DNA from: Maribacter halichondriae
GTDB lineage: Bacteria; Bacteroidota; Bacteroidia; Flavobacteriales; Flavobacteriaceae
Direction of reading: 5' to 3'
Assembly (NCBI RefSeq): GCF_027474825.1
Contig: NZ_CP107030.1
Location: 2,734,529-2,798,528 of the forward strand
Length of the DNA stretch: 64,000 bases
The notes under the pieces were generated by a model. That model was not told the origin of the DNA, ran no database searches, and worked only from the letters and a program-made list of their open reading frames with translations. Positions within the stretch are counted from its first letter, which is position 1. Each line of letters begins with the position of its first letter. Shown here piece after piece: positions 1,403-33,430 of this stretch. The position numbers and the translations under genes were made by a program.

Positions 1403-1445
1403 CAAAAATAACTTGTTGGAAAGTGAACCGAAATGATTTCCGTCA
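1403..1445 (-). promoter_or_regulatory. TGAY-N4-RTCA operator + -7 box (YtxH operon)
   Basis: Palindrome TGATTTCCGTCA at 1434-1445; 23 nt further on the minus strand is a perfect -7 box TATTTTTG (1410-1403). Same geometry as the other island promoters. Confidence 0.8.
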
Positions 1446-1504
1446 TGTTATAAGTATAAATTTCGAGTATTCCGGATTTTAAATAGCTTACATACCAAAG
1501 GTTT

Positions 1505-1537
1505 AAAAACAAAAACAGGAAGCCGAGGCCTCCTGTT
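1505..1537 (-). terminator. intrinsic terminator, minus strand
   Basis: AACAGGA at 1514-1520 pairs with TCCTGTT at 1531-1537, with further pairing inside. On the minus strand it is followed by TTTTGTTTTT. No T-run follows on the plus strand. No protein gene ends here, so it must end a non-coding transcript. Confidence 0.75.
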
Positions 1538-1539
1538 TC

Positions 1540-1690
1540 CTATGAGGGGTTAAAATTCGTTCGTACTTCCAACCAATCCTTTACACCACTTTATCGCTAA
1601 AATGACCTAGAGGTCGATTTTGGTTCGAACTGCATCGCTGCCCGCACTATGATCTATGCACCTTGCGGCAACATAAACCAATTTTTTAAA
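1540..1690 (-). ncRNA. possible second structured RNA segment
   Basis: Between two minus-strand terminators there is no ORF but potential structure: TTGGTT near 1680 can pair with AACCAA near 1622, enclosing CCGCA/TGCGG. Read-through of the upstream terminator, or a start near TTTTAGC at 1596-1602, could produce it. It has no island operator at the correct spacing, so its promoter is uncertain. Confidence 0.35.
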
Positions 1691-1717
1691 GAAACCGGGA
1701 CACCGAAATGTCCCGGT
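1686..1717 (-). terminator. intrinsic terminator of small RNA 1
   Basis: A 9-bp GC-rich stem (ACCGGGACA / TGTCCCGGT, 1694-1717) with a 6-nt loop; on the minus strand it is followed by TTCTTT. Nothing resembling a T-run follows on the plus strand. Confidence 0.8.
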
Positions 1718-1905
1718 CTCAAAGAAGGTATTGCATTTGCTTGTTACGCTTACAGCGGTTCACTCAAAATACCTATTGCTAGGCAGACTGGCAAACCACA
1801 GGGTCTAAAACAGCTGTGATACCTTCTCTGGGGCTCCGTTGCATTGCTGCGCCGAAGTACCCGTATCATAATATATTCAAAGAACGTTGTTGCTATTAAT
1901 TATGA
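1688..1905 (-). ncRNA. candidate regulon-controlled small RNA 1 (about 210 nt)
   Basis: A minus-strand transcript predicted from the operator at 1939-1950, the -7 box TATTTTAG (1915-1908) and the terminator at 1686-1717. No ORF of note. It can fold extensively: ATCATAAT/ATTATGAT near the 5' end, and GAAGGTAT/ATACCTTC closing a domain of about 100 nt. Inside that domain are CACAG/CTGTG, CCTA-GCAA-TAGG and CGCT/AGCG hairpins plus a GTTTGC/GCAAAT helix. The 5' region shares ATCATAA and GTTCTTTGAA with small RNA 2. I do not recognise it as tmRNA, RNase P or a known riboswitch; a 6S-like role is possible but unproven. Confidence 0.65.
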
Positions 1906-1907
1906 TG

Positions 1908-1950
1908 CTAAAATACAGGGACTCTATCAGGGAGAAAATGACCTAGGTCA
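1908..1950 (-). promoter_or_regulatory. operator + -7 box (small RNA 1)
   Basis: Perfect palindrome TGACCTAGGTCA at 1939-1950, then 23 nt, then TATTTTAG (1915-1908) on the minus strand. Operator and -7 box are identical to those of small RNA 2. Confidence 0.8.
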
Positions 1951-2039
1951 GTTTGGGTGATTTTTTTATTTTTTAACACTCCGGTCCGATTACCACTTGA
2001 GTCTTTAATTCTATTTCGACCCGAGAAATACTTCCCTAC

Positions 2040-2082
2040 TGATATTAATCATTTTATGCTGACTTACAAGTTGTCATTTTTG
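2040..2082 (+). promoter_or_regulatory. operator + -7 box (sigma-like gene)
   Basis: TGATATTAATCA at 2040-2051, 23 nt, then CATTTTTG at 2075-2082. The first base of the box departs from TAnnTTTG. The start codon at 2112 is about 25 nt downstream. Confidence 0.65.
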
Positions 2083-2111
2083 GAAGAAATTATGACCTAA
2101 AATACATCGGT

Positions 2112-2888
2112 ATGAAAAACACAGTAAACTATTTCGAACAAGAAAGAAAATTCCATGTATTCGTGGCGGGTACATTTTCGAAATTGGATGAGTTCAAGAA
2201 AAAAGGAGATAGCATTTCATTTAATATGGAATTGCTCAAAATTTTGCCGGAAGTGAAGCGTTACGTGGGAAGTCGACTTCTAACTACATTGAATAAAGGT
2301 ATTATCGATAAGAACAAATTCAGGACAGAAGATTTTATAGACCAACTCTTTATCGAAGTGTACGACCATTTTGATGAAGTGGCCAATGCGAAGGAACTGC
2401 ACCCATGGTTGTTCAAAAAAGCAGATGAATTGTTGGATGATGCCATTGTCGAAGAAGAATTCGATACGTTGTTCTTTGATAATATCGATGACTATTCCAA
2501 ACCCGAATGGGATGCTATGGAAGAAAAGTTCAGCACCGATGGTGATGGCGACCTGGTTATGTTTGAGGAGTTGGACGATAGTTTCTATAAAAAGAATGCA
2601 TATACGCTAAACCATGTTTTCGTGGAAGACGATGAACAGGAATTGGCGACAAAGCTTGATGAGCAATTGGATCAAGAGCGTATCGAAAACCATATGAAGA
2701 TGGTGTTCAACAGGATGTCCTCTACAATGAAAAGTGTATTCGAATTGTTTACCGATCATCAATTCTTGATTCCAGAAATAGCTAAAATCAAAAGTTTGAC
2801 TGTTCAAGAAGTAGAAAAACTTTTGGCCGATGCCAGAAAAATGCTAAGAACTAGTTTTTCAAAAAGATATTTAATTGATAGTAATTAA
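2112..2888 (+). CDS. divergent sigma-70-family-like protein
   Basis: A 258-residue protein. The C-terminal 60 residues (MSSTMKSVFELFTDHQFLI..EIAKIKSLTVQEVEKLLADARK) match the layout of sigma region 4: a helix before a helix-turn-helix, and an ARKMLR ending. Residues 45-110 resemble region 2, with helical segments and TEDFIDQLFIEVYDHF. A long acidic linker (about residues 115-190) separates them, longer than in ordinary ECF sigma factors. It leads an operon with the helical protein at 2899 and probably the gene at 3325, behind the island operator at 2040-2051. It could be an alternative sigma factor acting below the Crp/Fnr-like regulator, or a non-functional relative. No anti-sigma gene is visible. 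Confidence 0.65.
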   Translation: MKNTVNYFEQERKFHVFVAGTFSKLDEFKKKGDSISFNMELLKILPEVKRYVGSRLLTTLNKGIIDKNKFRTEDFIDQLFIEVYDHFDEVANAKELHPWLFKKADELLDDAIVEEEFDTLFFDNIDDYSKPEWDAMEEKFSTDGDGDLVMFEELDDSFYKKNAYTLNHVFVEDDEQELATKLDEQLDQERIENHMKMVFNRMSSTMKSVFELFTDHQFLIPEIAKIKSLTVQEVEKLLADARKMLRTSFSKRYLIDSN

Positions 2889-2898
2889 AAACTTAAAA

Positions 2899-3297
2899 AT
2901 GAACAGCAAAATTTCAAACCCGAAAAAAGAGCTATTGCTAGGCGCAGGCCTCGATGTGCTGCATCAAGAAAGCAGTGAATGGCAAGAAACCATTTCCTTT
3001 TGGAAAGACGAGACTAAATTTTTCGCCGATCTGTTGTCTAAAAAAGAGGCCGCGGCATCGGAATACGGAAAAATGCTAAAGAACTTGGACAAGATCCACG
3101 AAAACCTTTTTGATTATCTGTCGGATGATATTATCGACCATGAAAAATTCCTTTCCCGTTTGGTAAAAGGCGAAAAAGGATTATCGGACGGTGATTATCG
3201 CGAACAGCATCGAAAATTGAATGAAAAAATGGAAGTTTTTGGTCGGGATTTCAAGGAGTTCAAAAAGATGGTTTTTGGTTACGCGAAGAAACTTTAA
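2899..3297 (+). CDS. island helical protein, paralogue A
   Basis: A 132-residue, fully helical soluble protein of unknown function. The ATG at 2899 follows the upstream stop by 10 nt; in-frame extension would need a TTG. It shares with the proteins at 5055, 8825 and 20880 an N-terminal motif (here EWQETISFWKDETKFFADLL) and a C-terminal helix with F..F...K..VF. The pattern suggests a small four-helix bundle. All four paralogues lie behind TGAY-N4-RTCA promoters, so they are a core product of the island. The scattered His and Glu residues do not form a recognisable hemerythrin motif. Confidence 0.75.
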   Translation: MNSKISNPKKELLLGAGLDVLHQESSEWQETISFWKDETKFFADLLSKKEAAASEYGKMLKNLDKIHENLFDYLSDDIIDHEKFLSRLVKGEKGLSDGDYREQHRKLNEKMEVFGRDFKEFKKMVFGYAKKL

Positions 3298-3324
3298 ATA
3301 GTATCCGAAAAACTAAACACCCCA

Positions 3325-3666: not shown

Positions 3667-3683
3667 TAAGCAGCCTAGTGTAC

Positions 3684-5054: not shown

Positions 5055-5441
5055 CTACATATACGTACTCAGAAAACGGAAGAATTTTTTCTTAAGGTCT
5101 GCGTAGATCTGGCGTTGTGTCTCCATCTTGTTTCGGAACTCCAAATGGTTTTTGACCATGGCGATATCCAGCGCATCTTCTCCTGTCATGCTCTGTCCGG
5201 CGATCCGCGTCTCATGTTCTTCGATGGCTTCCTGAAGGTCTTCGATGACGCCACCGTGCAAGATGAATTCATTCTGGTAATGTTCCAGTTTTGCAAGTAC
5301 ATCTTTTGCTGTCCATCGGGTAACGAGTTCGCTTAATCGGTTATTGAAAGATTGTAGTTCATCCTCCCAAAAGGCAAGTTCCGATTGCCATTGCTTGTGT
5401 TCAAAATGGAGGTTCGAGTTGTAAATGATTTCCTTTTCCAT
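5055..5441 (-). CDS. island helical protein, paralogue B
   Basis: A 128-residue all-helical protein related to those at 2899, 8825 and 20880: QWQSELAFWEDELQSFNNRL near the N-terminus and an H..FRNKM.....Y..LKKKFFRFL C-terminal helix. No known family recognised. It is divergent from the lipoprotein at 5579, and both share the operator at 5517-5528, which has a perfect -7 box TACCTTTG (5493-5486) on this strand. Confidence 0.75.
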   Translation of the reverse strand: MEKEIIYNSNLHFEHKQWQSELAFWEDELQSFNNRLSELVTRWTAKDVLAKLEHYQNEFILHGGVIEDLQEAIEEHETRIAGQSMTGEDALDIAMVKNHLEFRNKMETQRQIYADLKKKFFRFLSTYM

Positions 5442-5485
5442 GATACTTCAATTTAAATTTTGTTCTTGTTCTTTGAGTTGGACTA

Positions 5486-5559
5486 CAAAGGTATTTCAAT
5501 ACAAAAGCTCTTAAAATGATATAGGTCATTTCAAAAAATTTCCATGCCAGCTTACTTTG
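5486..5559. promoter_or_regulatory. bidirectional operator with two -7 boxes
   Basis: TGATATAGGTCA at 5517-5528. Minus strand: 23 nt then TACCTTTG (5493-5486) for the helical protein. Plus strand: 23 nt then TTACTTTG (5552-5559) for the lipoprotein. Confidence 0.8.
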
Positions 5560-5578: not shown

Positions 5579-5965
5579 ATGAAAAAATGTAAAAGATTTG
5601 TCCCGATATTGATGTTATTTGTTTTTTTCGGCTTTGCAAGTTGCGGCCCGGTAGTCATTACCTCTAGGGCAAGTAACCCGCCGCCGCCTTGGTTCTATCC
5701 GAACCGTTTAGAGGTAGTGCGCTATGTCTATTTTCCGGAATACCATTTTTACTATGACCTAACGGCACGCACTTATCTTTATTTGGATGGTGGCGTCTGG
5801 GTACGAAGAAATGTCTTGCCACCAAGGTATCGGAGTATAGATTTAAGAAGGTCGCGATATGAGCGGATACGCAATTATAACGATGACAACATTCGCAGGT
5901 ATCATGAAGAAAACAATGCGAATCGGGGGAGGAGTAATAGAACTACAACTAGGAGAAGCAATTGA
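5579..5965 (+). CDS. small basic lipoprotein, hypothetical
   Basis: A 128-residue protein with a lipoprotein signal peptide (lipobox FASC, Cys at residue 22). The mature part is rich in Tyr, Pro and Arg, with a central segment (VVRYVYFPEYHFYYDLTARTYLYL) and a low-complexity Arg/Asn tail. Similar flavobacterial proteins sit in the periplasm or outer membrane with unknown roles. It has its own island promoter at 5517-5559. Confidence 0.75.
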   Translation: MKKCKRFVPILMLFVFFGFASCGPVVITSRASNPPPPWFYPNRLEVVRYVYFPEYHFYYDLTARTYLYLDGGVWVRRNVLPPRYRSIDLRRSRYERIRNYNDDNIRRYHEENNANRGRSNRTTTRRSN

Positions 5966-6289: not shown

Positions 6290-6332
6290 TGACTTTTATC
6301 ATCTTTTTAAATGATTAAAACGAAGATCTTTG
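6290..6332 (+). promoter_or_regulatory. operator + -7 box (PPK2 pair)
   Basis: TGACTTTTATCA at 6290-6301, 23 nt, then GATCTTTG at 6325-6332; the first base departs from TAnnTTTG. The ppk2 start is 20 nt downstream. Apart from the small ORF, the rest of the 5966-6351 gap shows nothing recognisable. Confidence 0.65.
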
Positions 6333-6351: not shown

Positions 6352-7204
6352 ATGCTAACAGCGAAAGACTTAAAAAAAACGAATAATAAAAAAGAATTCA
6401 TTGCACTTATCAAGGCAAAGAAAAGCAAGGCAGAGGTAAACGATTTATTGGAGACCGTTCAATACGAAAAAGAATTATTGGCTCTTCAGGCAGAATTTGT
6501 AGACTTTCAGCGTTGGGTTGCAAAGACTAAAAAAAGGGTCTGTATCATTTTTGAAGGTCGCGATGCCGCGGGAAAAGGAAGTGCCATTAGGCGTTTTACC
6601 GAGCACTTGAATCCACGTTCCATGCGCGTTGTGGCGCTTACTAAACCTACTGAAGTTGAAAAAGGGCAATGGTATTTTAGACGTTATATCAAAGAATTGC
6701 CCAACCCCGGAGAAATCGTTTTTTTTGATAGAAGTTGGTACAATCGTTCTGTTGTAGAGCCGGTAATGGGGTTCTGTAACGAGGAAGAATACAAGAAATT
6801 TATGGTGCAAGTGCCTGAATTTGAGCATATGCTCTATGAAGATGGTGTTGAAATAGTCAAATTCTGGTTCTCCATTTCAAAAGACGAGCAGGTAAAAAAG
6901 ATTTAATTCACGTCTTGAAAACCCCCTAAAACGTTGGAAGTTTAGCCCTGTAGATAAAGAAGGGCAAAAATTATGGGACAAGTATACGTTCTATAAAGAA
7001 CAGATGTTCAGTAAGACCCACACCAATTTCGGCCCTTGGATTATTGTCAAGACAAACAATAAGAAAGAAGCGCGATTGGAGAGTATGCGCTATGTACTTT
7101 CCAAATACGATTATGAAGGGAAGGGAGATTCCAGTGATATTCTATTACCAGACCCAAATATTATTCAACGCTACCATCGCTTGGTAAAACAAATTGACAT
7201 ATAA
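6352..7204 (+). CDS. ppk2: polyphosphate kinase 2 family protein, copy 1 (frameshifted)
   Basis: Class I PPK2 fold: Walker A FEGRDAAGKGSAIRRFTEHL, then GQWYFRRYI and the lid FFDRSWYNRSVVEPVMGF. PPK2 enzymes move phosphate between polyphosphate and nucleotides, usually making NTP from NDP. The frame breaks at the A6 run 6894-6899; removing one A gives VKRFNSRLENPLKRWKFSP and continues to 7204 (283 residues), matching copy 2 throughout. It is the first gene of a tandem pair, the second ATG following after 1 nt, behind the operator at 6290. The break may be a sequencing indel or genuine slippage. Confidence 0.85.
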
Positions 7205-8824: not shown

Positions 8825-9280
8825 CTATTTATCCTCCACAACCTGTTTGACAAATTGCTCTGTATCCATCAAATAATCCGTGACGGTAAATACTTCTTTT
8901 CGGTTACTGCGGAAATCTTTGACAAATGTGGCGATGTCATCTTCAAGCTGTTGGTGCTCCGCTCGAAACTTATGCGAATCATAGGCAAAGGGATTATCAA
9001 TGAGCTCTGCCAAATGATGTGGATGTTTGTTAACGCGGTACGCCAAGGATCCACATTGTTTTTCAATGTTTAAAAGACTTACCTCGATTTCACGAACCAT
9101 ATCAATGTTTTCCTTTTCTGAAATCCACATAAAATACTTATCGATAAGGTTGCGCAAAAATTTTAAATCATCCTCATAAAAAGAGAGATCTGATTTCCAA
9201 TGTTCGGTAAGTACATATAATTGTTGCCAATCGGCTTCGTGAATATATTGGTCGTTGGGCCTGCTTCTGAAATTGCTCAT
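8825..9280 (-). CDS. island helical protein, paralogue C
   Basis: A 151-residue helical protein, the longest of the four paralogues. It has HWKSDLSFYEDDLKFLRNLI near residue 25 and HQQLEDDIATFVKDF..NRKEVF near the end. It differs from the others by about 15 extra residues at each end. Function unknown. Its promoter is the palindrome at 9338-9349 with TAATTTTA at 9314-9307, leaving a leader of about 22 nt. Confidence 0.75.
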   Translation of the reverse strand: MSNFRSRPNDQYIHEADWQQLYVLTEHWKSDLSFYEDDLKFLRNLIDKYFMWISEKENIDMVREIEVSLLNIEKQCGSLAYRVNKHPHHLAELIDNPFAYDSHKFRAEHQQLEDDIATFVKDFRSNRKEVFTVTDYLMDTEQFVKQVVEDK

Positions 9281-9306: not shown

Positions 9307-9349
9307 TAAAATTACCAAGGAAAATTCCAATTAAACATGACCTTCGTCA
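9307..9349 (-). promoter_or_regulatory. operator + -7 box (helical protein C)
   Basis: TGACCTTCGTCA at 9338-9349, 23 nt, then TAATTTTA (9314-9307) on the minus strand. Confidence 0.75.
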
Positions 9350-10001: not shown

Positions 10002-10223
10002 CTAATTATTTTTTTTATGGGTTTCCAGGTGGTGCTTCAGCAATTGCTTTAAACTCTCAAGATACGCCAGCATGGCTTCCTTGTCCACATGTGGATGGTT
10101 CTCGGCAGGAATGGTCATCGGGTTTTCATCCAAAGAACGATATAGCTCAGGGTAATTTGTCTCGATATTAGTCGTAAGCTTCTCGATTTCGGCTATTACG
10201 TTCCTTAAATCCTTCTTTACCAT
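10002..10223 (-). CDS. small helical protein of the ETNYPELY family, copy 1
   Basis: A 73-residue protein: an N-terminal helix, a central IETNYPELYRSLDENP, then HPHVDKEAMLAYLESLKQLL and KHHLETHKK. It is a clear paralogue of the gene at 24383-24601, with a remnant copy at 8733-8823. Both full copies lie opposite a universal stress protein gene and share a bidirectional operator with it, which suggests a functional link with the Usp. No known family assigned with confidence. Confidence 0.75.
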   Translation of the reverse strand: MVKKDLRNVIAEIEKLTTNIETNYPELYRSLDENPMTIPAENHPHVDKEAMLAYLESLKQLLKHHLETHKKNN

Positions 10224-10243
10224 ATTGAATTAGTTGTATGGGG

Positions 10244-10317
10244 TAAATGTATTCAAGGTTTTAATCAGAAAACATGACACAGGTCATTCAAAAGTCGTTC
10301 AGAGGGTCATAGTTTTG
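10244..10317. promoter_or_regulatory. bidirectional operator (usp1 / small gene operon)
   Basis: TGACACAGGTCA at 10275-10286. Plus: 23 nt then TAGTTTTG (10310-10317) for usp1. Minus: 23 nt then TACATTTA (10251-10244) for the 10223-9616 operon. Confidence 0.8.
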
Positions 10318-10342
10318 GAATCAATTTAAAAAAGAAATCAAG

Positions 10343-11218
10343 TTGAAAACAATTGTATACGCTACGGATTACTCCGAAAATTCGGTAGCCGCCCTGAAAT
10401 ATGCGCATACTTTGAACACACAACTAAGTAATCACTTGGTCATTACACACATATTCGATTACCCTACTGTTTTAGGTACAGAAGGGCTTGAAGAACCCTT
10501 TCCACATTTGGAAGAAACAGCCTTTAAAAACCATCGTGCCAAACTGGAGAAATTCTGCGAGGAACATTTCGGTAGTGATTGGAAGGACCCAAATATTCGG
10601 TTGGAGGCCGTAGAAAACAAATCGGTCATCAAAGGTATTATTTCAGTAGCCGAAGAATGGCATGCCCAAATGATTGTTGTTGGCATGAAAGGTGGAAGCG
10701 GTCTACGGGAACTGATTATGGGAAGCACGGCAAAACAGCTAATTGAAAAAGCGCCTTGCCCTGTATTGGCGATTCCCGCCGATGCGAGTCATGTGGCGAT
10801 TAAAACCATCGTGTATGCCACCGATTTTGAAGAAGAGGACATCTATGCGATCCAGAAACTGGTCGAAATTGCCAAGCCCCTTGAAGCGACCGTAAATGTA
10901 GTACATATTTCCACAAAGGAAGAATATAAGGGGGATATGCAGATGGCGTGGTTCAAAGAAGCACTCAAAGAAAAGGTAACGTATAAAGGGATTACGTTTC
11001 AGCAACTGTTTTCAGAAGATATTTTTGATTCGCTTCGAATTTATTTAGGGAATGTGGGGGCCGACCTGATGGTCATGCTGGAAAGAGAAAAGAAAGGATT
11101 TCTCAAAAAATTGTTCCATCAGGATCTCGTCAAAAAAATGGAGTCCTATGGTCGGGTACCGCTTTTGAGCTTTAGGGAGGGCCATCATCAACTCTTTTAT
11201 TTTAGCGCGGTACTTTAA
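10343..11218 (+). CDS. universal stress protein, tandem UspA domains
   Basis: A 291-residue protein of two UspA domains (about 1-147 and 152-291). The first carries the ATP-binding pattern G-x2-G-x9-GS (GMKGGSGLRELIMGST) and PVLAIP; the second is degenerate and ends RVPLLSF. The start codon is TTG at 10343, supported by alignment with usp2 (both begin MK.I.YATDYSENS.AAL) and by the TSS expected near 10323. A homologous second copy is at 23421-24266. Usp proteins act in survival under hypoxia and energy stress; here it is under the island operator. Confidence 0.9.
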   Translation: MKTIVYATDYSENSVAALKYAHTLNTQLSNHLVITHIFDYPTVLGTEGLEEPFPHLEETAFKNHRAKLEKFCEEHFGSDWKDPNIRLEAVENKSVIKGIISVAEEWHAQMIVVGMKGGSGLRELIMGSTAKQLIEKAPCPVLAIPADASHVAIKTIVYATDFEEEDIYAIQKLVEIAKPLEATVNVVHISTKEEYKGDMQMAWFKEALKEKVTYKGITFQQLFSEDIFDSLRIYLGNVGADLMVMLEREKKGFLKKLFHQDLVKKMESYGRVPLLSFREGHHQLFYFSAVL

Positions 11219-14696: not shown

Positions 14697-14759
14697 ATTG
14701 TGAAGTCTATTTGAACCGTAAATTTATGAGATTCTTCCTCAGTATCCCATCAATATATT

Positions 14760-14793
14760 AAAAACAGAAACAGGAGGCCAATGGCCTCCTGTT
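14760..14793 (-). terminator. intrinsic terminator of small RNA 2 / upstream of pta
   Basis: A perfect 11-bp stem AACAGGAGGCC / GGCCTCCTGTT (14769-14793) with a 3-nt loop, followed on the minus strand by TCTGTTTTTA. There is no T-run on the plus strand. Confidence 0.85.
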
Positions 14794-14971
14794 ATCTCGA
14801 AGTTACATGCATCAAATCTGAATTTTAATTCTATAAATATGCCCTATATCGGGCCAACCTATAGGATCTAAAATTTTAGATAATGCAGGTACCTTCCCGT
14901 TCTTGTTAAATGAATATGGGCTTCCCCAAACCTCGATCCATTTTTTCAAAGAACTATAACCAACTTATGAT
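14760..14971 (-). ncRNA. candidate regulon-controlled small RNA 2 (about 210 nt), or pta leader
   Basis: A minus-strand transcript predicted from operator 15007-15018, -7 box TATTTTAG (14983-14976) and the terminator at 14760-14793. Only a tiny 11-codon ORF (MDRGLGKPIFI) occurs. The RNA can form an ATCTAAAATTTTAGAT hairpin (perfect 16-nt palindrome near 14866-14881) and a GCCC/GGGC hairpin. Promoter, length, terminator stem (AACAGGAGGCC) and the 5' words ATCATAA and GTTCTTTGAA match small RNA 1 and its neighbour. It lies between ppsA and pta, so it may instead be an attenuated 5' leader of pta-ackA. Confidence 0.6.
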
Positions 14972-14975
14972 ACCG

Positions 14976-15018
14976 CTAAAATATATCTTAACAATGATTG
15001 ACAAAATGACCTAGGTCA
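14976..15018 (-). promoter_or_regulatory. operator + -7 box (small RNA 2)
   Basis: Perfect palindrome TGACCTAGGTCA at 15007-15018; 23 nt; TATTTTAG (14983-14976). Identical in operator and -7 box to small RNA 1. Confidence 0.8.
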
Positions 15019-17435: not shown

Positions 17436-17459
17436 GTTGCGTAGTTTAGAGATTTTGCC

Positions 17460-17502
17460 CAAATCTAAGCGCAGACTGTATGGTTACCAATGACCTTGGT
17501 CA
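17460..17502 (-). promoter_or_regulatory. operator + -7 box (ppsA)
   Basis: TGACCTTGGTCA at 17491-17502, 23 nt, perfect -7 box TAGATTTG (17467-17460). It decides the ppsA start codon. Confidence 0.85.
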
Positions 17503-18008: not shown

Positions 18009-18051
18009 CAAAACTATCATTTGCCCATTAGAAAACATATGATATTGGTCA
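18009..18051 (-). promoter_or_regulatory. operator + -7 box (PNPOx-like gene)
   Basis: TGATATTGGTCA at 18040-18051, 23 nt, perfect TAGTTTTG (18016-18009), minus strand. Confidence 0.85.
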
Positions 18052-18098: not shown

Positions 18099-18141
18099 TG
18101 ATCTAGGTCATTGTAGGCCGCTCATTGGCAAGGTATTTTTA
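18099..18141 (+). promoter_or_regulatory. operator + -7 box (PepSY-like gene)
   Basis: TGATCTAGGTCA at 18099-18110, 23 nt, TATTTTTA at 18134-18141. Any start codon before about 18147 is excluded. Confidence 0.8.
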
Positions 18142-18196
18142 CATCGTAAACTCAAAAAGTTTACCGCTAATACATATTAATTTAAATAATACGATC

Positions 18197-21304: not shown

Positions 21305-21347
21305 GAAATCTATACTATAAATTGGATTAATAAAATGATTATGATCA
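21305..21347 (-). promoter_or_regulatory. operator + -7 box (helical protein D operon)
   Basis: TGATTATGATCA at 21336-21347, 23 nt, TAGATTTC (21312-21305), minus strand; the last base departs from consensus. Confidence 0.7.
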
Positions 21348-21456: not shown

Positions 21457-21499
21457 TGATCTTAGTCATGCTAGCTATGGATTGTTAAGACTAATTTTA
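21457..21499 (+). promoter_or_regulatory. operator + -7 box (quinone reductase-like gene)
   Basis: TGATCTTAGTCA at 21457-21468, 23 nt, TAATTTTA at 21492-21499; ATG at 21522 is 22 nt further. Confidence 0.78.
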
Positions 21500-23424: not shown

Positions 23425-24266
23425 AGTACTCCTACGGAATAACTCAATAAAGGAATACCGATGTTGGATTCCATTCTCAAGACCATGTCCCGATCAAAAA
23501 GTTTACGAATAACTCCCTTATCCTTGCGCTCCAACATGACCAGTAAATCGGCCTCTTTCTCCAACAAAGAACTCAGTAGTTTTTCATAAATGTTTTCGGA
23601 GTAGATCAGATTGTATTCCAGTTTATTGTAATCTACCTTTTGCTGTACCATCTCTTTGAACCATTGCAGTTGCTGATCGCCAACGTATTCTTTTTTAGTG
23701 GTTATATGGATTACCCTGATGATCGCATCGAACGCTTCCGCAATTTTCGCCAATCTTCGGATGGCAAAGATATCGGCCTTCTCAAAGTCACTTGCATATA
23801 CGATGGTCTTGCAATATTTAGTATTTGAGGTCTCAGGAACGGCCAATACGGCACAAGGAGCCTTTCGAATCAGTGCCTTTGCGGTGCTTCCGAAGATAAA
23901 CTCCTTTACGGCACTTGCACCTTTTGTTCCTACAACGGCCAGGTCTACATTGTGGTCGATTACTTTTTCTATGATTCCATCCGAGGTTGAACCATCCTCA
24001 TCTACGAGTAGCTCTAAATTGATTGTTTTTAGTTTATCCCCTAAGTGTTCGGCACAAAAATCCTCAAGTTTTGCGCGATGTTCTGCAAAAAGTCGCTTTT
24101 CTTTTCGAATGTAGGATATGGAAACCGGGCTCGCCACCGATACCGGAATATCAAAAACATGCATGACCAGTAATTTTGCATTCAACTTTTCCGCAAAAAA
24201 ATGGGCAAAATTCAAGGCGGCTATCGAATTTTCGGAATAGTCGGTAGCATAGAGTATGTTTTTCAT
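23421..24266 (-). CDS. universal stress protein, tandem UspA domains (second copy)
   Basis: A 281-residue protein of two UspA domains, paralogous to usp1 over its whole length. The first domain has the ATP-binding pattern GTKGASAVKEFIFGSTAKAL and PCAVLAVP; the second lacks it. It starts with ATG while usp1 uses TTG. It is divergent from the small ETNYPELY gene, sharing the bidirectional operator at 24323-24334, exactly as usp1 does with its own small partner. The whole Usp/small-gene cassette is thus duplicated. Confidence 0.9.
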   Translation of the reverse strand: MKNILYATDYSENSIAALNFAHFFAEKLNAKLLVMHVFDIPVSVASPVSISYIRKEKRLFAEHRAKLEDFCAEHLGDKLKTINLELLVDEDGSTSDGIIEKVIDHNVDLAVVGTKGASAVKEFIFGSTAKALIRKAPCAVLAVPETSNTKYCKTIVYASDFEKADIFAIRRLAKIAEAFDAIIRVIHITTKKEYVGDQQLQWFKEMVQQKVDYNKLEYNLIYSENIYEKLLSSLLEKEADLLVMLERKDKGVIRKLFDRDMVLRMESNIGIPLLSYSVGVL

Positions 24267-24291
24267 GATTTTGTGTTTTTGATGTACCCTG

Positions 24292-24365
24292 TAAAATTAT
24301 CCTGACCCGAAGTAGTACAAAATGACATTGGTCATTTCCGTTTGTGGCCCTAGGTAATAGCTTTG
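24292..24365. promoter_or_regulatory. bidirectional operator (usp2 / small gene operon)
   Basis: TGACATTGGTCA at 24323-24334. Minus: 23 nt then TAATTTTA (24299-24292) for usp2. Plus: 23 nt then TAGCTTTG (24358-24365) for the operon from 24383. Confidence 0.82.
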
Positions 24366-24382
24366 TGCAAAGATGTTCTCAA

Positions 24383-24601
24383 ATGAAAAATCTACAACGT
24401 ATTCTATCGGAGATTGTTCAGTTGACCAGCAGTATGGAAACCAACTACCCTGAACTCTATCAATTTTTGGATGAAACCCCGATTACCATTCCATCGACCG
24501 CCCATCCTGATTTGACCGAACTTACCTTAACGGAATATTTGGAAGACTTAAAAGAGTTGCTAAAACACCACTTGCAAACCCATAAAAATAAACTGGCATG
24601 A
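24383..24601 (+). CDS. small helical protein of the ETNYPELY family, copy 2
   Basis: A 72-residue paralogue of 10002-10223: METNYPELYQFLDETPITIP, LTEYLEDLKELLKHHLQTHK. The ATG at 24383 is chosen because an in-frame start at 24344 lies upstream of the -7 box (24358-24365) and the alignment with copy 1 begins here. First gene of a probable operon reaching 26959. Function unknown. Confidence 0.75.
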   Translation: MKNLQRILSEIVQLTSSMETNYPELYQFLDETPITIPSTAHPDLTELTLTEYLEDLKELLKHHLQTHKNKLA

Positions 24602-27054: not shown

Positions 27055-27097
27055 TGATATTTATCATTCTTCAAATGGCAATTGTCCCTTAGCTTTA
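27055..27097 (+). promoter_or_regulatory. operator + -7 box (CDP-alcohol transferase operon)
   Basis: TGATATTTATCA at 27055-27066, 23 nt, TAGCTTTA at 27090-27097. Confidence 0.75.
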
Positions 27098-27166: not shown

Positions 27167-27769
27167 ATGTGGACCTTTAAAAACTTTAACATAGCCGATT
27201 GGTTTTCATTTTACCGTGTCATTGCAGTACCCTTATTAGTAGCGTTATTATGGTTCGGAGAACGCGAACTTTTTACTTGGTTCTTGCTCATTAGTTACAG
27301 TACCGATGCCATCGATGGGTATTTGGCTAGAAAACTCAAAATAACCAGTGCCCGAGGTTCACAATTAGATTCGATTGGGGATCAATTGACTTTTTCGATG
27401 GGCCTTATTGGCCTTATCATATTCGAGACCGCCTTTATCAAAGCGAATATCATACTCATTCTTATTGCATTTGTGCCTTATCTTCTTCAAATGGTAATCG
27501 CTTATTTCAAATATGGCAAGGCGACAGCCTTTCATACCTATCTTGCCAAATTTTCCGCTCTTGTTCAAGGTGTATTCATTTTGTGGCTCCTATTTTTTGG
27601 GCCGGTGTATTGGCTGTTCTACTTTATGATTGTATTGGGACTTTTGGAAACGATAGAGGAGATTACGCTTATCTTTATGTACGATACTTGGGTATCGGAT
27701 GTAAAAGGTTTTTATTTCGCACTACAGGACAAAAGAAGATTTAATGGCACTGATGTCGTAAAACAATAA
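27167..27769 (+). CDS. CDP-alcohol phosphatidyltransferase
   Basis: A 200-residue membrane enzyme with a complete CDP-OH-P signature: D-x2-DG-x2-AR-x8-G-x3-D-x3-D, reading DAIDGYLARKLK, then SARGSQLDSIGD. About five membrane segments follow. It joins CDP-diacylglycerol to an alcohol (glycerol phosphate, inositol-like or another); the acceptor cannot be told from sequence. First gene of an operon with the phosphoesterase 7 nt downstream. Suggests membrane-lipid remodelling in the regulon. Confidence 0.88.
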   Translation: MWTFKNFNIADWFSFYRVIAVPLLVALLWFGERELFTWFLLISYSTDAIDGYLARKLKITSARGSQLDSIGDQLTFSMGLIGLIIFETAFIKANIILILIAFVPYLLQMVIAYFKYGKATAFHTYLAKFSALVQGVFILWLLFFGPVYWLFYFMIVLGLLETIEEITLIFMYDTWVSDVKGFYFALQDKRRFNGTDVVKQ

Positions 27770-27776: not shown

Positions 27777-28994
27777 ATGCGATCTTATTCCCTTTTCGCA
27801 ATTGTTCTTTTATGTCTGGCATTATTACTCATAGATATTTTTGCTTTCTATTGGTTGCTTTCCATAACACGACCATTTCCATCTACGCTGCTGAAAAACA
27901 GCATTTATTTTGCTTTTTGGATTTTTACCATTGGGTTGATTACTTCCATTTTGATTCTAAAGATAAGACTAGATCTAGTCGCCCCTGAACGCCAACAACT
28001 TTTGATATCGAGATTGTACGGGTTGACCGTATCGTCATTTATCCCCAAACTGATTTTCGTAATCGTTATTAGCATTTTATACTTTTCAAACCATGTGTTT
28101 TCTGAAAGTGAATCGCTTATTGTGATTCCCTTAATTGGTGTTTTCTCCGGCTTTCTACCTTTTTTTGTGATTCTCTATGCTGTCTTTAGTGCGGTCTACC
28201 GGTTCAAGGTGCATCATATCAAATTGAAATGTGACGTTTTACCAACAAATTTTAAAGGGCTGCGTATTGTGCATATATCCGACCTTCATTTGGGCAGTTT
28301 TAATTTCAAGTATCATGTGCTGGACCGTGCCATCAAAAAAATAAATCATTTAAGGCCCGATTTTATCTTTTTTACGGGGGATCTGGTCAACAATTTCGCA
28401 TGGGAATTAAGGGGATGGGATTCCGTTCTAAATCAATTGTCGGCCAAGCAAGGAAAATATGCCGTTTTGGGAAACCATGACTACGGCGATTACAGTCGAT
28501 GGGAATCACAAAAAGAAAAACAGGACAATTTTCGTGGCATCAGGGATTTTTACAAAAAAATCGGTTTTAAACTGTTGATGAACGAGGCGGGCCTTTTTGA
28601 AAAGACGAATGAAAGAATGGCTATCATTGGAGTAGAAAATTGGGGAAATCCACCTTTTAAACAATATGGCGATTTGCAAAAGGCTTTGAAAAAAGTAAAT
28701 GATATTCCCTTTAAAATTTTGCTGTCACACGATCCATCGCATTGGCGTGAAGAAGTGGCTCACCATACTAATATTGCTTTGACACTTTCTGGTCATACCC
28801 ATGGTATGCAGGCCGGTATCAATCTCAAAAACAAAAAGTGGAGCCCTATCAAGTATAAATATGAACATTGGGCAGGTCTGTACAAGGAAAGCAAGCAATA
28901 CCTTTATGTGACCCGAGGTCTAGGTTGGATGGGGTTCCCTGGTAGATTGGGCATGCGCCCTGAGATCACTTATATCCAATTGGAAAAGTCCTAG
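27777..28994 (+). CDS. membrane-anchored metallophosphoesterase
   Basis: A 405-residue protein with about four N-terminal membrane segments (residues 1-140) and a calcineurin-like domain. Metal motifs: IVHISDLHLG (DxH), FFTGDLVNN (GD), AVLGNHDYG (GNHD), LLSHDPSHW (H) and LSGHTHGMQAG (GHxH). It belongs to the YkuE/YaeI-type group acting on phospholipid-like phosphodiesters or pyrophosphates. Co-transcribed with the CDP-alcohol transferase, so a lipid head-group role is plausible. Confidence 0.88.
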   Translation: MRSYSLFAIVLLCLALLLIDIFAFYWLLSITRPFPSTLLKNSIYFAFWIFTIGLITSILILKIRLDLVAPERQQLLISRLYGLTVSSFIPKLIFVIVISILYFSNHVFSESESLIVIPLIGVFSGFLPFFVILYAVFSAVYRFKVHHIKLKCDVLPTNFKGLRIVHISDLHLGSFNFKYHVLDRAIKKINHLRPDFIFFTGDLVNNFAWELRGWDSVLNQLSAKQGKYAVLGNHDYGDYSRWESQKEKQDNFRGIRDFYKKIGFKLLMNEAGLFEKTNERMAIIGVENWGNPPFKQYGDLQKALKKVNDIPFKILLSHDPSHWREEVAHHTNIALTLSGHTHGMQAGINLKNKKWSPIKYKYEHWAGLYKESKQYLYVTRGLGWMGFPGRLGMRPEITYIQLEKS

Positions 28995-29050: not shown

Positions 29051-29093
29051 TGATATTGGTCATTCCATAACCTCCAAAGCCGTCTTATTTTTG
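29051..29093 (+). promoter_or_regulatory. operator + -7 box (permease operon)
   Basis: TGATATTGGTCA at 29051-29062, 23 nt, perfect TATTTTTG at 29086-29093. The ATG at 29111 follows after 17 nt. Confidence 0.85.
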
Positions 29094-29110: not shown

Positions 29111-30278
29111 ATGAAAAGATATACCATCAACCTACCCAATGTTTTTTACTTTTTTGGCATTACTGCCTTAATCGTTTATCTGCTTATAGAAGGTCAAGTA
29201 ATTCTTGTTCCGTTTATTTTTAGTTTTTTTTTGCCCTGATGCTAAAGCCTATTGTTAGTTTTTTTGAGGCTAAAATGCACAATAGATTCGTATCGATAAT
29301 AGCAGCCTACCTTGTGGCCGTAGTACCTTTAATGGGAGTGCTTTTTTCTTCTTCAATCAATCCAGAATTTTGTTTGGTGAGCTACCTTCGGTTAGGGATA
29401 GGTTGAATAGTGTAGCAACAGAATCCATGGGATGGTTCGACCAGCAGTTCGAATTGGATCCCAAAACTTCATTTAACTGGGTATCAGAAAACCTTCTTTC
29501 CGTACTCGATCTTCCTTTAGGATTGTTACAAGAAAGCTTTCAATCGGGCACGACCATCCTTGTGAATACGGTCTTGATTAGTTTGATTACGTATTTCATG
29601 TTGTTATATCGAAAGGCGTTCAAGAATTTCTTTCTTTCACAGATCAATCCGAAATACAGGGAAACTACGGAACATCTTTTTGATCAGTTGCAAAAATTGA
29701 CGAAGCGCTATATGATAGGGCAAGGACTGATCGTCGTTATTCTCGGTGTCCTCATTGGGTCGGGGTTATGGTTGATCGGCGTACCCTATCCTTTTTTCTG
29801 GGGGTTTTTGGCAGGCTTCCTTGAAATCATACCCTATGTAGGCACTACCATTGGTGGTATCCTGCCCTTTACCTATATGTTGATGGTCGCCGATACGCTT
29901 TGGCAACCTTGGGCAGTGTTGATCTTATATATTATAGTTCAACAAATAGAAGGTAATCTGATCTCGCCCAATGTAATGGGTTCTAGCATCAAGGTCAATC
30001 CATTATTTATCATAACAGGACTCTTTTTAGGGGGATTTATTTGGGGTGTCTCGGGCATGATTCTGGTATTACCCGTTTTGGCAATTTCCAAAGAGGTATT
30101 TAGAAGTTTTGATGTACTAGCTCCCCTTAGTTATTTGATGGAGGATGGGCTTTCAAGGAAATCAAATGTTTTTCTTGAAGAATTTGATAGCAGTGAGTAC
30201 CGTTTTTTCCATGTTTTTTTTGAGGAAAAGGGGGATGGGAAAGAAAAAAAGAAAGCAATACTGATAATTGAGACATGA
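29111..30278 (+). CDS. AI-2E family (PerM-type) membrane transporter, two frameshifts
   Basis: Starting at ATG 29111 (MKRYTINLPNVFYFFG), the frame breaks in the T9 run 29224-29232 and again in the T6 run 29342-29347. One extra T in each gives a continuous 389-residue protein with about seven membrane segments, including the family's late GFLAGFLEIIPYVGTTIGG and a pre-C-terminal QQIEGNLISPNVMG. This family moves small molecules or ions; it is not restricted to AI-2. Both breaks are one-base losses in T-runs, so a sequencing cause is likely. Confidence 0.85.
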
Positions 30279-30619: not shown

Positions 30620-30668
30620 ATAAAGGTAATGGGAACCAAAATTTTTGGATCTTGGGATCATTATTTTC

Positions 30669-31642
30669 TTACTCCTTCTTTTCTTGCTCCTTTTTCTGCT
30701 TTCTAAAATAACCCCTGGTCAAAAAGTTATGCTTTAAGGCTTCCATGTTCTCATTGAAACGCTCCGTTCCTTGCTCGATGTTGAACATCGTTCTTTCCAA
30801 TTGATTGACCACGGCAGTATCCTTTGAAACATAGTTTACCAAGCCATCCCCCCTTTTATTCCTCCGACAATGGTATTCAAATCTTGGGTCATCTTGTTTA
30901 TTTCAATGCTGGATGTCTCTAGGTTTTCAATAACATTCCGCATTTTTCCAGCTGATATTGTATCGGTAAGGAGTACTCCCGCGGTGCTTTCCTCAAAATC
31001 GATTTTACCTATAATCTTGTTCAATTCGGAAATTGCGTAATTCGCTTGATTACTGGTATACTTTAAATTGGTAATCGTTTGTTGTAGATCGCCTGCCATC
31101 GTGGTATCGTTGAGCAACCTGCCCAAAGTACCTTTTCCCTTTATCAATGATTGGGTCACTTTCAAAAGATCTTCTGTCAACAAAGCCGCATTTTCATTGG
31201 TGGTATTCAAGGTAGTCATCATATCTTGAGTGGCCACTTTGCTATACGATGGTAGTTCGTCCCCCGGCTGTATCAACTGCGCAGTACCTTCCCCTGGAAT
31301 GATGTTGATGAGCATGCTTCCTACGAGACCATCAGAACCAATAGCTGCTATGGCATCTTTTTTAATATGTTCCAGCATTTTGTCGGCAATAATCATATGT
31401 ACCCTTATGGTAGTGTCGTTGACCATTTCGATCTTGTTTACCGTACCGACATTTATTCCCGAAAAACGGACATTGTTTCCATTTTGGAGTCCGCTAGCGT
31501 TCTTGAATACTGCTGTTACAGGAAAGGTCTTCCCGAACATATTTTGCCGGTTCCCGATTAGATATGCGGCTACGAGTAATAGCAGCGTACCAAGGACTAC
31601 GAAAATGCCCAATTTCAAATTTTCCATTGCTGTCTTCGCCAT
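30669..31642 (-). CDS. mlaD: MCE/MlaD-family lipid-binding protein (frameshifted)
   Basis: A 324-residue repaired product: an N-terminal anchor (ENLKLGIFVVLGTLLLLVAA), the MCE domain (FKNASGLQNGNNVRFSGINV, GTVNKIEM, IAAIGSDGLVGSMLINIIPG) and a long helical C-terminus. MCE proteins form the periplasmic hexamer that carries phospholipids between membranes. The frame breaks at the C6 run 30848-30853; one more G (minus strand) restores GGDGLVNYVSKDTAVVNQLE and the end KKEQEKKE at 30669. As sequenced it also reads in-frame from mlaF, an apparent fusion explained by another lost base. Confidence 0.85.
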
Positions 31643-31646
31643 ACCG

Positions 31647-32427
31647 TTATTTTTTAAAAATGCTTCTACTTTTGGGTCATTGGATGCCGATAGTTCAGCA
31701 TAGGTACCTTCCGCATAATTGATGCCATCCACCAATAAGATCATCTTTTCGGAAATGACCCGAGCGCAATCCACATCGTGCGTAATGATCAATGATGAGG
31801 TTCCATATTTCTTTTGAATGGACCGCATCAATTCTATAATCTCTTTGGAGGTAATCGGATCTAAACCGCTGGTAGGTTCATCGTACAAGATTACCTTGGG
31901 TTTTAAGATAAGTGTGCGGGCCAAGGCGACCCGCCGTTTCATTCCCCGGAAAGTTCGGCAGGCATTAAATCTAGCGTGTGGGCCAGACCTACATTTTCCA
32001 AAGCCTCAAGTACCAGAGGTGTAGTGTCATTAACAACACCCAACTTTTCTTTATGCCGCCGCATCGGGAATTCCAGATTTTCGCGAACGGTCATGGAATC
32101 GTATAATGCACTTCCTTGAAAAAGAAATCCGATGTCAGATCGCAGTTCGTCAAGATGCTGCTGATCAAGGGTATTAATTTCCTTCCCTAAAACCTCTACA
32201 TAACCACTATCAGGAGTTATCAATCCGACCAAGCACTTGATCATGACCGACTTTCCAGAACCTGATTTTCCCATGACCACCAGATTTTCGCCTTTATACA
32301 AGGTCATATTGAAACCGTTCAATACGTGGTTGTCGCCAAAACTTTTACGCAGGTCACTTATTTCAATGACCACCTCCTTCTCTTCGACCTTAGCCTCTGC
32401 AATCTTTATATGTTCTTTTGTATTCAT
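31647..32427 (-). CDS. mlaF: ABC transporter ATP-binding protein MlaF (frameshifted)
   Basis: A 260-residue repaired ATPase of the Mla lipid transporter. Walker A VMGKSGSGKSVMIK, the Q-loop GFLFQGSALYDSMTV, signature LSGGMKRRVALARTL, Walker B ILYDEPTSGLDP, switch TSLIITHDV. The signature is split by loss of one G in the run 31944-31947 (reads LSGE-stop). Near the end, the T6 run 31650-31655 lacks one T, which removes the stop and joins the frame to mlaD. The start is ATG 32427, next to the mlaE stop; an ATG at 32439 is also possible. Confidence 0.9.
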
Positions 32428-32428
32428 A

Positions 32429-33211
32429 TTAGAGTTCATAAAAAATATCGGAAATAAATACAGCGATAAAATCCACAACGAACAGTAAAAGCGAGGCCAT
32501 GACCACGGCTGTATTTGCCGCCAAGCCAACGCCGGCCGTTCCCTTATCGCTATAATATCCTTTGTAACAGCCCACAAGTCCAATGACAAATCCGAAAAAG
32601 AACGACTTAATGGTTGCCGGTACCAGGTCCCCATAGGATAAGGCATCAAAAACCGTATTGAAATAGAGTTGGAACGAAACGGCACCCTTTAAATTTTCAA
32701 TCAAGGCCGAGCCATAAAGAGCGACCAAATCGCCGAAAATAACCAATAAGGGAAGCATTAGAGTAGTGGCCAGAATTCGAGTTACGACCAGATATTTAAA
32801 CGGATTGGTACCCGAAACTTCCATGGCATCGATTTGTTCGGTAACACGCATTGAACCTAATTCCGCACCAATTCCTGAAGCGATTCGACCTGCACAGATC
32901 AAAGCTGTAATTACGGGACCTATTTCACGTACAATTGAAATTCCAACCATATTGGGCATCCATGAGACTGCGCCAAATTGAATAAGTGTAGGTCTGGATT
33001 GTAGTGTGAACACCAAACCGATAATAAACCCTGTCAAACCGACCAACAATAATGAGCGAACGCCCATTTGGTAACATTGTCGATGCAATTCCTTCAATTC
33101 GAACGGCGGTTTTAAAACCTCCTTAAAAAAACGACCCGCAAAATAGGAGAGGTCACCTATTTGGATAAAAAACTGTTTGGTCTTATCGACCATTTCAGTT
33201 GCTAGCGTCAT
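32429..33211 (-). CDS. mlaE: MlaE-family ABC transporter permease
   Basis: A 260-residue permease: GLTGFIIGLVFTLQSRPTLI, IVREIGPVITALICAGRIAS and GAELGSMRVTEQIDAMEV are the family's conserved core, with about five membrane segments. It is the first gene of mlaE-F-D, the inner-membrane complex trafficking phospholipids. The ATG at 33211 is chosen because the longer TTG frame (33244) starts inside the -7 box TATATTTG (33249-33242). Confidence 0.92.
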   Translation of the reverse strand: MTLATEMVDKTKQFFIQIGDLSYFAGRFFKEVLKPPFELKELHRQCYQMGVRSLLLVGLTGFIIGLVFTLQSRPTLIQFGAVSWMPNMVGISIVREIGPVITALICAGRIASGIGAELGSMRVTEQIDAMEVSGTNPFKYLVVTRILATTLMLPLLVIFGDLVALYGSALIENLKGAVSFQLYFNTVFDALSYGDLVPATIKSFFFGFVIGLVGCYKGYYSDKGTAGVGLAANTAVVMASLLLFVVDFIAVFISDIFYEL

Positions 33212-33241
33212 ATTACTTTCCAGAGTTTCTATGGGTTTCAC

Positions 33242-33284
33242 CAAATATAGAGTAGGCGCAATTGGTTAAAAATGACGATGGTCA
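33242..33284 (-). promoter_or_regulatory. operator + -7 box (mlaEFD)
   Basis: TGACGATGGTCA at 33273-33284, 23 nt, perfect TATATTTG (33249-33242), minus strand. Confidence 0.85.
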
Positions 33285-33387
33285 TACGGTCAAACACTGG
33301 AAAATTCATGCCGTAAAAGAGTTTGGATTGGTGAAGAGACCCATGAAGACCCGTTGGTGGTTCGGGGAATCAAAACCCAAGCGATCA

Positions 33388-33430
33388 TGACGCAAGTCAT
33401 ATTTTTGATGTTAGCTACCTCCTACTTTTG
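33388..33430 (+). promoter_or_regulatory. operator + -7 box (L,D-transpeptidase)
   Basis: TGACGCAAGTCA at 33388-33399, 23 nt, perfect TACTTTTG at 33423-33430, plus strand. The divergent mla and LDT genes have separate operators. Confidence 0.82.

Follow-up and report, generated by a model that had tools for sequence, protein, structure and literature searches.

Candidate operators at a fixed distance from the promoter box

The stretch considered here is a window of 64,000 nucleotides (nt), 64 kb, from Maribacter halichondriae (contig NZ_CP107030.1, positions 2,734,529 to 2,798,528). It begins with the end of a gene for a receiver-Crp hybrid regulator, and its first half carries many copies of the palindrome TGAY-N4-RTCA, a candidate operator of Crp/Fnr-type regulators. 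A preliminary description of this DNA had listed 18 such palindromes, and all 18 were found in place. On at least one side of each, at exactly 23 nt, lies a box with five or six of the six fixed letters of TAnnTTTG; the palindromes at 5517, 10275 and 24323 have boxes on both sides, giving 21 promoters. The claim that each promoter faces a gene or a small RNA also held, as the sites at 1939 and 15007 (minus side) precede RNA-like transcripts with no protein gene directly after. The predicted operators are as follows (gene names in this genome were assigned by eye, except where Pfam was run).

1403..1445, minus strand: operator 1434, box TATTTTTG, predicted start 1398; gene 1034-1363 (YtxH-like)
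1908..1950, minus strand: operator 1939, box TATTTTAG; predicted small-RNA start 1903
2040..2082, plus strand: operator 2040, box CATTTTTG; gene 2112-2888
5486..5528, minus strand: operator 5517, minus side, box TACCTTTG; gene 5055-5441 (uncharacterised paralogue family)
5517..5559, plus strand: operator 5517, plus side, box TTACTTTG; gene 5579-5965
6290..6332, plus strand: operator 6290, box GATCTTTG; gene 6352-6906 (polyphosphate kinase 2, PPK2; frame ends early)
9307..9349, minus strand: operator 9338, box TAATTTTA; gene 8825-9280 (uncharacterised paralogue family)
10244..10286, minus strand: operator 10275, minus side, box TACATTTA; small gene 10002-10223
10275..10317, plus strand: operator 10275, plus side, box TAGTTTTG; gene 10343-11218 (universal stress protein)
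14976..15018, minus strand: operator 15007, box TATTTTAG; predicted start 14971
17460..17502, minus strand: operator 17491, box TAGATTTG; phosphoenolpyruvate (PEP)-utilising enzyme in two pieces, 16671-17462 and 15046-16689
18009..18051, minus strand: operator 18040, box TAGTTTTG; gene 17527-17982 (pyridoxamine oxidase-like)
18099..18141, plus strand: operator 18099, box TATTTTTA; gene within 18125-18706
21305..21347, minus strand: operator 21336, box TAGATTTC; gene 20880-21296 (uncharacterised paralogue family)
21457..21499, plus strand: operator 21457, box TAATTTTA; genes 21522-22541 and 22552-23424 (dehydrogenases)
24292..24334, minus strand: operator 24323, minus side, box TAATTTTA; gene 23421-24266 (universal stress protein)
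24323..24365, plus strand: operator 24323, plus side, box TAGCTTTG; small gene 24383-24601, paralogue of 10002-10223 (55% identity)
27055..27097, plus strand: operator 27055, box TAGCTTTA; genes 27167-27769 (CDP-alcohol phosphatidyltransferase) and 27777-28994
29051..29093, plus strand: operator 29051, box TATTTTTG; AI-2E-type transporter, in pieces, 29111-30278
33242..33284, minus strand: operator 33273, box TATATTTG; MlaE permease 32429-33244, then Mla/ABC genes
33388..33430, plus strand: operator 33388, box TACTTTTG; gene 33486-34496 (L,D-transpeptidase domain)

Across the whole window, 22 boxes with at least five of the six letters stood 23 nt from a palindrome, whereas the other 54 spacings (5-59 nt) averaged 0.5 boxes and never exceeded three. 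When the window was re-sampled 100 times from a first-order Markov model, boxes at this spacing averaged 0.09 (maximum 2) and palindromes 5.1, against 21 observed. The palindromes beyond the 18 lie at 22967 (intragenic, without a box), 35817 (without a box) and 59628 (a five-of-six box on one side). The same spacing prevailed elsewhere: 56 boxes at 23 nt and at most four at any other distance in 11 further stretches of the genome together with the window, and 92 at 23 nt and at most ten elsewhere in 21 loci of relatives.

To count sites more widely, we defined a strict site as TGAY-N4-RTCA, 23 nt and TAnnTTT, with the reversed pattern as control. The genome (4.53 Mb, one contig) has 68 strict sites (30 + 38) and none of the reversed pattern; with spacings of 21-25 nt allowed, the count is 80 against 6. 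Thus, the genome-wide count, which had been fixed beforehand as the test on which the proposal of a large regulon could fail, came out clearly in its favour. A chance origin of the sites was rejected on these counts and on the Markov re-sampling, as was a regulon limited to 33 kb, since 56 of the 68 sites are spread over four clusters (at about 1.08-1.12, 1.68-1.74, 2.54-2.56 and 2.67-2.77 Mb). We found 2541 strict sites against 176 reversed in 149 genomes of the family, and a weaker enrichment (870 against 116) in 157 genomes of the class, the own genome excluded. Orthologues of the universal stress gene at 10343-11218, whose nearest named relatives are from Maribacter (at most 78% identity), were searched for a relaxed site (TGA-N6-TCA, 23 nt and a box with at least four of the six letters); 13 of 21 had one within 160 nt upstream, one of them only at -160, and the inner bases of the palindrome varied among these sites. 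A literature search restricted to open-licence papers returned no description of this operator regulon.

In Flavobacterium psychrophilum, mapped start sites put the sigma-A box TAnnTTTG at -12 to -5 (PMC9723704). Because the 23-nt spacing is fixed, this box position would place the palindrome at -47 to -36, with its centre at -41.5, the class II position, which is also where the preliminary description had put it. Predicted leaders measure 13-74 nt at 53 of the 67 sites for which a frame was found; five measure 110-160 nt and nine are shorter, the start codon in some of these nine lying upstream of the predicted transcription start. The operator logo is [AC]TGA[CT]NNNN[AG]TCAT; its first position is G in 3% of sites, and the base following the palindrome is T in 90%. 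As the palindrome is symmetric, one copy can serve two divergent promoters, as at 10275 and 24323.

Candidate regulators and the genes behind the sites

One candidate regulator is encoded at the very start of the window.

1..389, plus strand: end of the gene for a receiver-cNMP-HTH_Crp hybrid regulator, frame 1-255, then a second frame 57-389 with MIGTATETAIRTLSDF

The protein had been described as Crp/Fnr-type. Its output domain is indeed of the Crp type; it is not a plain Crp/Fnr protein, being instead the end of a receiver-Crp hybrid encoded beside a histidine kinase. The gene starts about 0.7 kb upstream of the window and its frame is broken; HTH_Crp_2 lies in the window, Response_reg and cNMP_binding lie on the upstream piece, and the orthologues in relatives are intact. 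Seven HTH_Crp_2 proteins over threshold are encoded in the genome. Three are hybrids beside histidine kinases and one is an FNR-like protein; all four genes lie within the site clusters. The protein at 1-389 was rejected as sole regulator; with the two other hybrids and the FNR-like protein it shares one type of recognition helix.

Intact hybrids of about 350-390 amino acids are common in relatives, in 74 of 149 family genomes (E < 1e-80) and in 76 of 157 class genomes, from 39 of 63 families (E < 1e-70). A kinase gene directly precedes the hybrid on the same strand in all 20 loci of relatives that were read (in three of them the hybrid was recognised by its coordinates); several of these loci continue with a universal stress gene that has a site of its own. 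The phosphorylation residues of the receiver (D, D, T/S and K) are kept in 13 of 13 aligned hybrids, and the hybrid, with such a receiver and an adjoining kinase gene, has the hallmarks of a two-component response regulator. In all 13 rows Glu occupies the place of CRP Arg82, which we take to be a residue that binds cyclic AMP (cAMP). By Pfam, the hybrids and the FNR-like protein combine the cNMP fold and the HTH_Crp domain of Crp/Fnr proteins.

Among the several PAS domains of the kinase encoded before the window's hybrid (locus L001, 16958-19342), one bears the LOV signature GKNCRFLQ / NYRKDGSLFWN / FIGVQNDVT; the kinase also gives below-cut-off matches to YtvA and to blue-light kinase models. 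It would be striking if light fed into a low-oxygen regulon. As a general signal, blue light was rejected, because the LOV signature with its cysteine was found in this kinase and in only 6 of the 20 kinases of relatives.

The FNR-like protein has 242 amino acids, a CESC motif and four invariant cysteines. The canonical cluster cysteines of FNR are C20, C23, C29 and C122. Aligned with the FNR-type chain 9qlt (of the same protein group as 5e44), the protein matches the first, second and fourth of these, and all 11 rows have Cys at a further position, 67. Because one cluster cysteine is replaced and the NCBIfam Fnr score is below the cut-off, we class the protein as FNR-like, not FNR, and its oxygen sensing is a prediction. 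In FNR, we take the helix residues to be E209, S212 and R213 and the site to be TTGAT-N4-ATCAA; the FNR-like protein keeps E and R and has I for S212, and the outer base of the present operator is A or C, not T.

Residues 180, 181 and 185 of CRP contact its site, R180 with the outer G and E181 with the A of TGA (PMC1274295). Ten hybrids read T/E/R (seven), S/E/R (two) or P/E/R (one) at these positions, and the FNR-like helix, TES[AC]IR or TESLIR, is also T/E/R. The E. coli sequence served as yardstick for these residues. G is scarce at the operator base that R180 would read, and neither the R180/E181/R185 set nor the TGTGA of CRP was found, the residues being mostly T/E/R. Among the 30 Crp/Fnr matches with loci (one of them without a readable helix), 19 proteins other than the hybrids could be read, and 12 of these showed R-V-R, R-P-x or R-A-R.

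We then compared site numbers with regulator content in 148 family genomes, the own genome excluded, scoring the FNR-like protein at E < 1e-75 (a gap in the scores) and the hybrid at E < 1e-80. Genomes with neither regulator (n = 20) had a median of 1 site (42 sites against 22 control), those with only the FNR-like protein (n = 53) 11 (666 against 74), those with only the hybrid (n = 29) 16 (519 against 26), and those with both (n = 42) 28 (1211 against 49). Genomes with a partial FNR-like match were kept apart (n = 2 each; 5 against 0 without and 30 against 5 with a hybrid). Mann-Whitney p values were 1e-9 for FNR-like against neither, 8e-9 for hybrid against neither and 5e-11 for both against FNR-like, and are descriptive only, because the genomes are related and differ in size. 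Outside the family (153 class genomes, with a looser FNR threshold of 1e-50), medians were 1 for neither (n = 42; 73 sites against 37), 4 for FNR-like (n = 37; 192 against 27), 4 for hybrid (n = 44; 229 against 21) and 10.5 for both (n = 30; 336 against 19). The eight family genomes of at least 3 Mb with neither regulator had 21 sites against 15. A search for other HTH_Crp_2 proteins in ten 'neither' genomes gave a match at E ≤ 0.001 in nine and over the curated cut-off in seven.

The genes behind the sites of the own genome encode universal stress proteins, Hsp20, a DnaJ-like protein, thioredoxin, Dps, HPF, CcoS and HemN, as well as acetate and PEP enzymes. Sites are also borne by the FNR-like gene itself and by the kinase-hybrid operon, whose leader measures 138 nt. 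Downstream genes were also read for all sites of G029, G170, G098 and G109, for 19 of 23 regions of G019 and for 9 of 13 of G087. Sites precede hemN and ccoS in both hybrid-only and all four FNR-only genomes read. Universal stress domains occur among the first genes of the hybrid-only and FNR-only sets in 4 of 36 and 5 of 48 cases, and CBS proteins in three and one; the FNR-only set, which omits frameless sites and five short or overlapping frames (L122, L126:2598, L156, L176:1857 and L180:3142), also has pyruvate formate-lyase (two), pta (two) and NapC/NirT (one). Together, hemN, cbb3 assembly, fermentation, universal stress proteins and ribosome hibernation fit a life without enough oxygen. 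In line with this, oxygen limitation raises the cbb3 oxidase and heme enzymes in F. psychrophilum (PMC9723704). The CRP/FNR homologues of Flavobacteriales were predicted to sense carbon (PMC8510549); for this operator, the gene content points to low oxygen (hemN, ccoS) and speaks against carbon sensing.

Predicted small RNAs

The minus-strand promoters at 1939 and 15007 share the box TATTTTAG, have no gene behind them, and are followed by strong terminators at +209 and +207. The same layout of operator, RNA and terminator was found in relatives. In the window, three RNA-like features were defined.

1686..1903, minus strand: predicted structured RNA of about 218 nt with an intrinsic terminator at its end; covariance-model match at 1685-1830, 94.7 bits, the RNA being itself one of the 12 rows of the model; z -8.4
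1505..1647, minus strand: second, weaker tandem unit of the same predicted RNA family with a terminator-like end; 37.5 bits, E 1.3e-4
14752..14971, minus strand: putative terminated, rod-folding leader or RNA before pta (12603-14696) and ackA (11318-12508); z -7.2

The unit at 1505..1647 was not among the rows used to build the model and has no operator of its own within 200 nt. Ten RNA sequences folded singly gave a long hairpin and a terminator, with z from -5.3 to -8.4; the one from L219 was branched. Of the 19 candidates that passed the scan, 18 were aligned (all except L070) and 12 entered the covariance model, the copy at 15007, L070, L091, two of L104, L098 and L099 being left out. RNAalifold recovered only the apical stem and the terminator from the 12-sequence alignment. 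The fuller rod was obtained from the single-sequence fold of one member, filtered on the same 12-sequence alignment, so that pair counts on these 12 sequences lean towards the rod. A later count covered 20 members in an alignment fitted to the model, including eight rows not used in building it (two of them near copies of used rows). In this alignment, 32 of 41 pairs show changes on both sides, with 108 such cells against 31.6 in shuffles (none of 500 as high), and 89.9% of cells are paired, against 39-52% when the alignment is slid.

The model, which was also run on the window and 67 loci, matched the own genome and ten others among the 149 family genomes (E ≤ 0.001); weak members may be missed in this search, as Infernal's stricter filters were used. 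Two of the ten other matches are short (53 bases in G035 and 78 in G080). An operator lies 114-125 nt before the match in eight of the ten, one of which, G013, was already known from the site-based scan, and none precedes the matches in G035 and G100. All genomes with an RNA match except G035 carry a hybrid. Rfam 15 gave no match above the gathering score in positions 1-34000 of the window or in L005, L024, L219 and L220. The transcript at 15007, for which the covariance model gave no match at E up to 1, may be a relative of the RNA family or a pta leader.

Tandem arrays of RNA units occur at L094:560-1490, L024:17681-18220 and L021:12755-13366. In most loci the operator precedes the first unit only; in L021 and L022 it precedes the first two. 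With transcript starts aligned, GTTCTTTGAA occurs near +20 in five of eleven RNAs, and in many a largely unpaired stretch resembling ACCTTTTGA lies near the transcript start; both are possible target-pairing stretches.

Interpretation and relation to known systems

We consider it probable, at roughly three chances in four, that the palindromes are class II operators read by the FNR-like protein or by the receiver-Crp hybrid, and that they activate a low-oxygen survival regulon which includes the predicted small RNAs. The proposal of a large Crp/Fnr-type class II regulon, as first put forward, thus gains support from the genome-wide counts, the spacing and the published box position. The sequences themselves show the operator, its fixed 23-nt distance to the sigma-A box, the sites before orthologues, the two regulator types with matching recognition residues and the dependence of site number on carrying one, the other or both; we infer binding and activation by the regulators, an oxygen input to the FNR-like protein, a kinase input to the hybrid, and the production and regulatory action of the RNAs. 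Either regulator, once bound, would activate transcription from a position 41.5 nt before the start. The FNR-like protein, with its four invariant cysteines, is predicted to sense oxygen, and the product of the neighbouring histidine kinase gene is predicted to phosphorylate the hybrid. In the simplest picture phosphorylation would replace cAMP as the hybrid's switch, because the receiver residues are kept and Glu stands at the place of Arg82. The output would include the predicted small RNAs.

Several observations weigh against this reading. Eight of the 21 orthologous universal stress genes have no site within 160 nt. In the FNR-like protein, the third canonical cysteine (C29) is N, and the best NCBIfam match, to Fnr, scores 109 bits against a cut-off of 228. 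All three hybrids of the own genome are frame-broken, which is most simply explained by sequencing errors. Outside the family, site numbers per genome are small. The comparison of sites and regulators runs across related, non-independent genomes with FNR cut-offs (1e-75, and 1e-50 in the class) chosen after the scores were seen. The 'neither' genomes are also smaller, with a median of 2.1 Mb; the order is the same when sites are counted per Mb. Finally, seven of the 19 other Crp/Fnr proteins fall outside the contrasting helix classes (K/E/R in two, and E/E/R, V/E/R, P/E/R, R/E/R and R/Q/N); therefore, residues of the T/E/R type appear to fit the operator and do not by themselves single out the two regulators.

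It seems unlikely that the FNR-like protein alone controls the operator, with the hybrids in the same clusters reading other sites. The 53 genomes with only the FNR-like protein are rich in sites (666 against 74) and its gene carries one, as this explanation would have it; against it stand the 29 hybrid-only genomes, a class for which the presence search could have missed diverged FNR-like proteins, with 519 sites against 26 and hemN and ccoS sites in the two read, the 44 hybrid-only genomes outside the family (229 against 21), and the E/R, mostly with T at 180, that the hybrids carry. Quite improbable, too, is an antagonism in which one regulator activates and the other represses at a shared site. 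Their like recognition residues would force competition, but the fixed class II distance is kept in hybrid-only and FNR-only genomes alike, an indication that either one can activate.

A carbon- or cAMP-type CRP/MalR regulon, which would follow from the carbon-sensing prediction of PMC8510549, shares the protein family with our candidates, and TGA-N6-TCA is also the core of the CRP site. We hold it very improbable, given that T, S or P stands at position 180 in place of R, that G is almost absent next to TGA, that hemN, ccoS, pflB, pta and stress genes are among the first genes, and that Glu replaces Arg82 in 13 of 13 hybrids; a plain cAMP-dependent CRP was rejected on residue 180, the rare outer G and this Glu. 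We give hardly any credence to the idea that the palindrome is a promoter element read by a sigma factor or by a protein other than Crp/Fnr. The tight distance to the -7 box and the 90% T after the palindrome would suit such an element, but in both sets of genomes the enrichment tracks the presence of two Crp/Fnr proteins, and a primary sigma factor is expected in every genome.

The regulon so read would resemble the FNR and DosR regulons in content and, by the features compared, belong to neither. FNR regulons of proteobacteria use class II operators and have hemN and cbb3 genes among their targets, as is predicted here. Like proteobacterial FNR (chains 9qlt and 5cvr/5e44), the FNR-like protein is a Crp/Fnr protein with E and R in the helix and three of the four cluster cysteines aligned. 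It differs in the helix neighbours T and I, in one replaced cysteine and another invariant at 67, in an operator without the outer T of TTGAT, in the Bacteroidota box TAnnTTTG, and in a second regulator class that goes with the same site. In the DosS/DosR dormancy regulon, low oxygen leads a sensor kinase and a response regulator to switch on genes for universal stress proteins and for survival. The pairing and the gene types are alike, here as predictions; DosR, however, has a LuxR/NarL-type output domain, whereas the output of the hybrid is HTH_Crp_2 on a Crp/Fnr operator. In the FixL-FixJ-FixK system, PAS kinase signalling also ends in a Crp/Fnr protein (FixK2, structure 4i2o), but FixJ is separate and switches on fixK, whereas receiver and Crp are fused in one protein here. 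FnrS of E. coli is a small RNA under a Crp/Fnr low-oxygen regulator, as the RNAs described above are predicted to be under a Crp/Fnr-type operator; unlike FnrS, these would be about 210 nt long, with a rod of about 100 nt, their own terminator and tandem units, and they had no Rfam match in the stretches searched.

More tentatively, and with somewhat less than even confidence, we suggest that Bacteroidota use one operator code with two interchangeable readers, an iron-sulphur FNR-like protein with a relocated cysteine and a kinase-driven hybrid, such that a two-component pathway takes over the whole low-oxygen regulon where the FNR-like protein is lost. One kinase of the own genome would bring in a LOV (blue-light) domain, and the tandem, rod-shaped RNAs of about 210 nt would form an FnrS-like arm. 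If true, a phosphorelay would have replaced a metal sensor on an unchanged set of operators. Bacteroidota are a major phylum of sea, soil and gut, and our search of open-licence papers found no FNR-type operator code described for their oxygen control. What the analysis offers is an operator in concrete form, the geometry of its promoters, two classes of regulator, a list of genes and an RNA family, each open to direct test.

Many genes of the assembly are frame-broken, among them the hybrids, PPK2, the PEP-utilising enzyme, an ABC ATPase, hemN and a universal stress gene, and all were analysed as they stand, unmended.

Frame-broken stretches: 1-389; 6352-6906; 15046-17462; 30836-32685; L003:6184-7243; L007:14380-15228; L010:3940-5600

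Assembly completeness is 94.68%, against 99% in two genomes of the same genus, and the hybrids of relatives are intact; the breaks are most simply sequencing indels.

Two further observations concern the genes of the window. The segments 10002-11218 and 23421-24601 form a duplicated module, in which a universal stress protein and a protein of 72-73 amino acids diverge from one shared operator. The genes at 2875-3297, 5055-5441, 8825-9280 and 20880-21296 encode four small paralogues that match no Pfam family and share 19-27% identity over long alignments; operators stand directly before three of them, and similar-looking proteins follow sites in genome G170.

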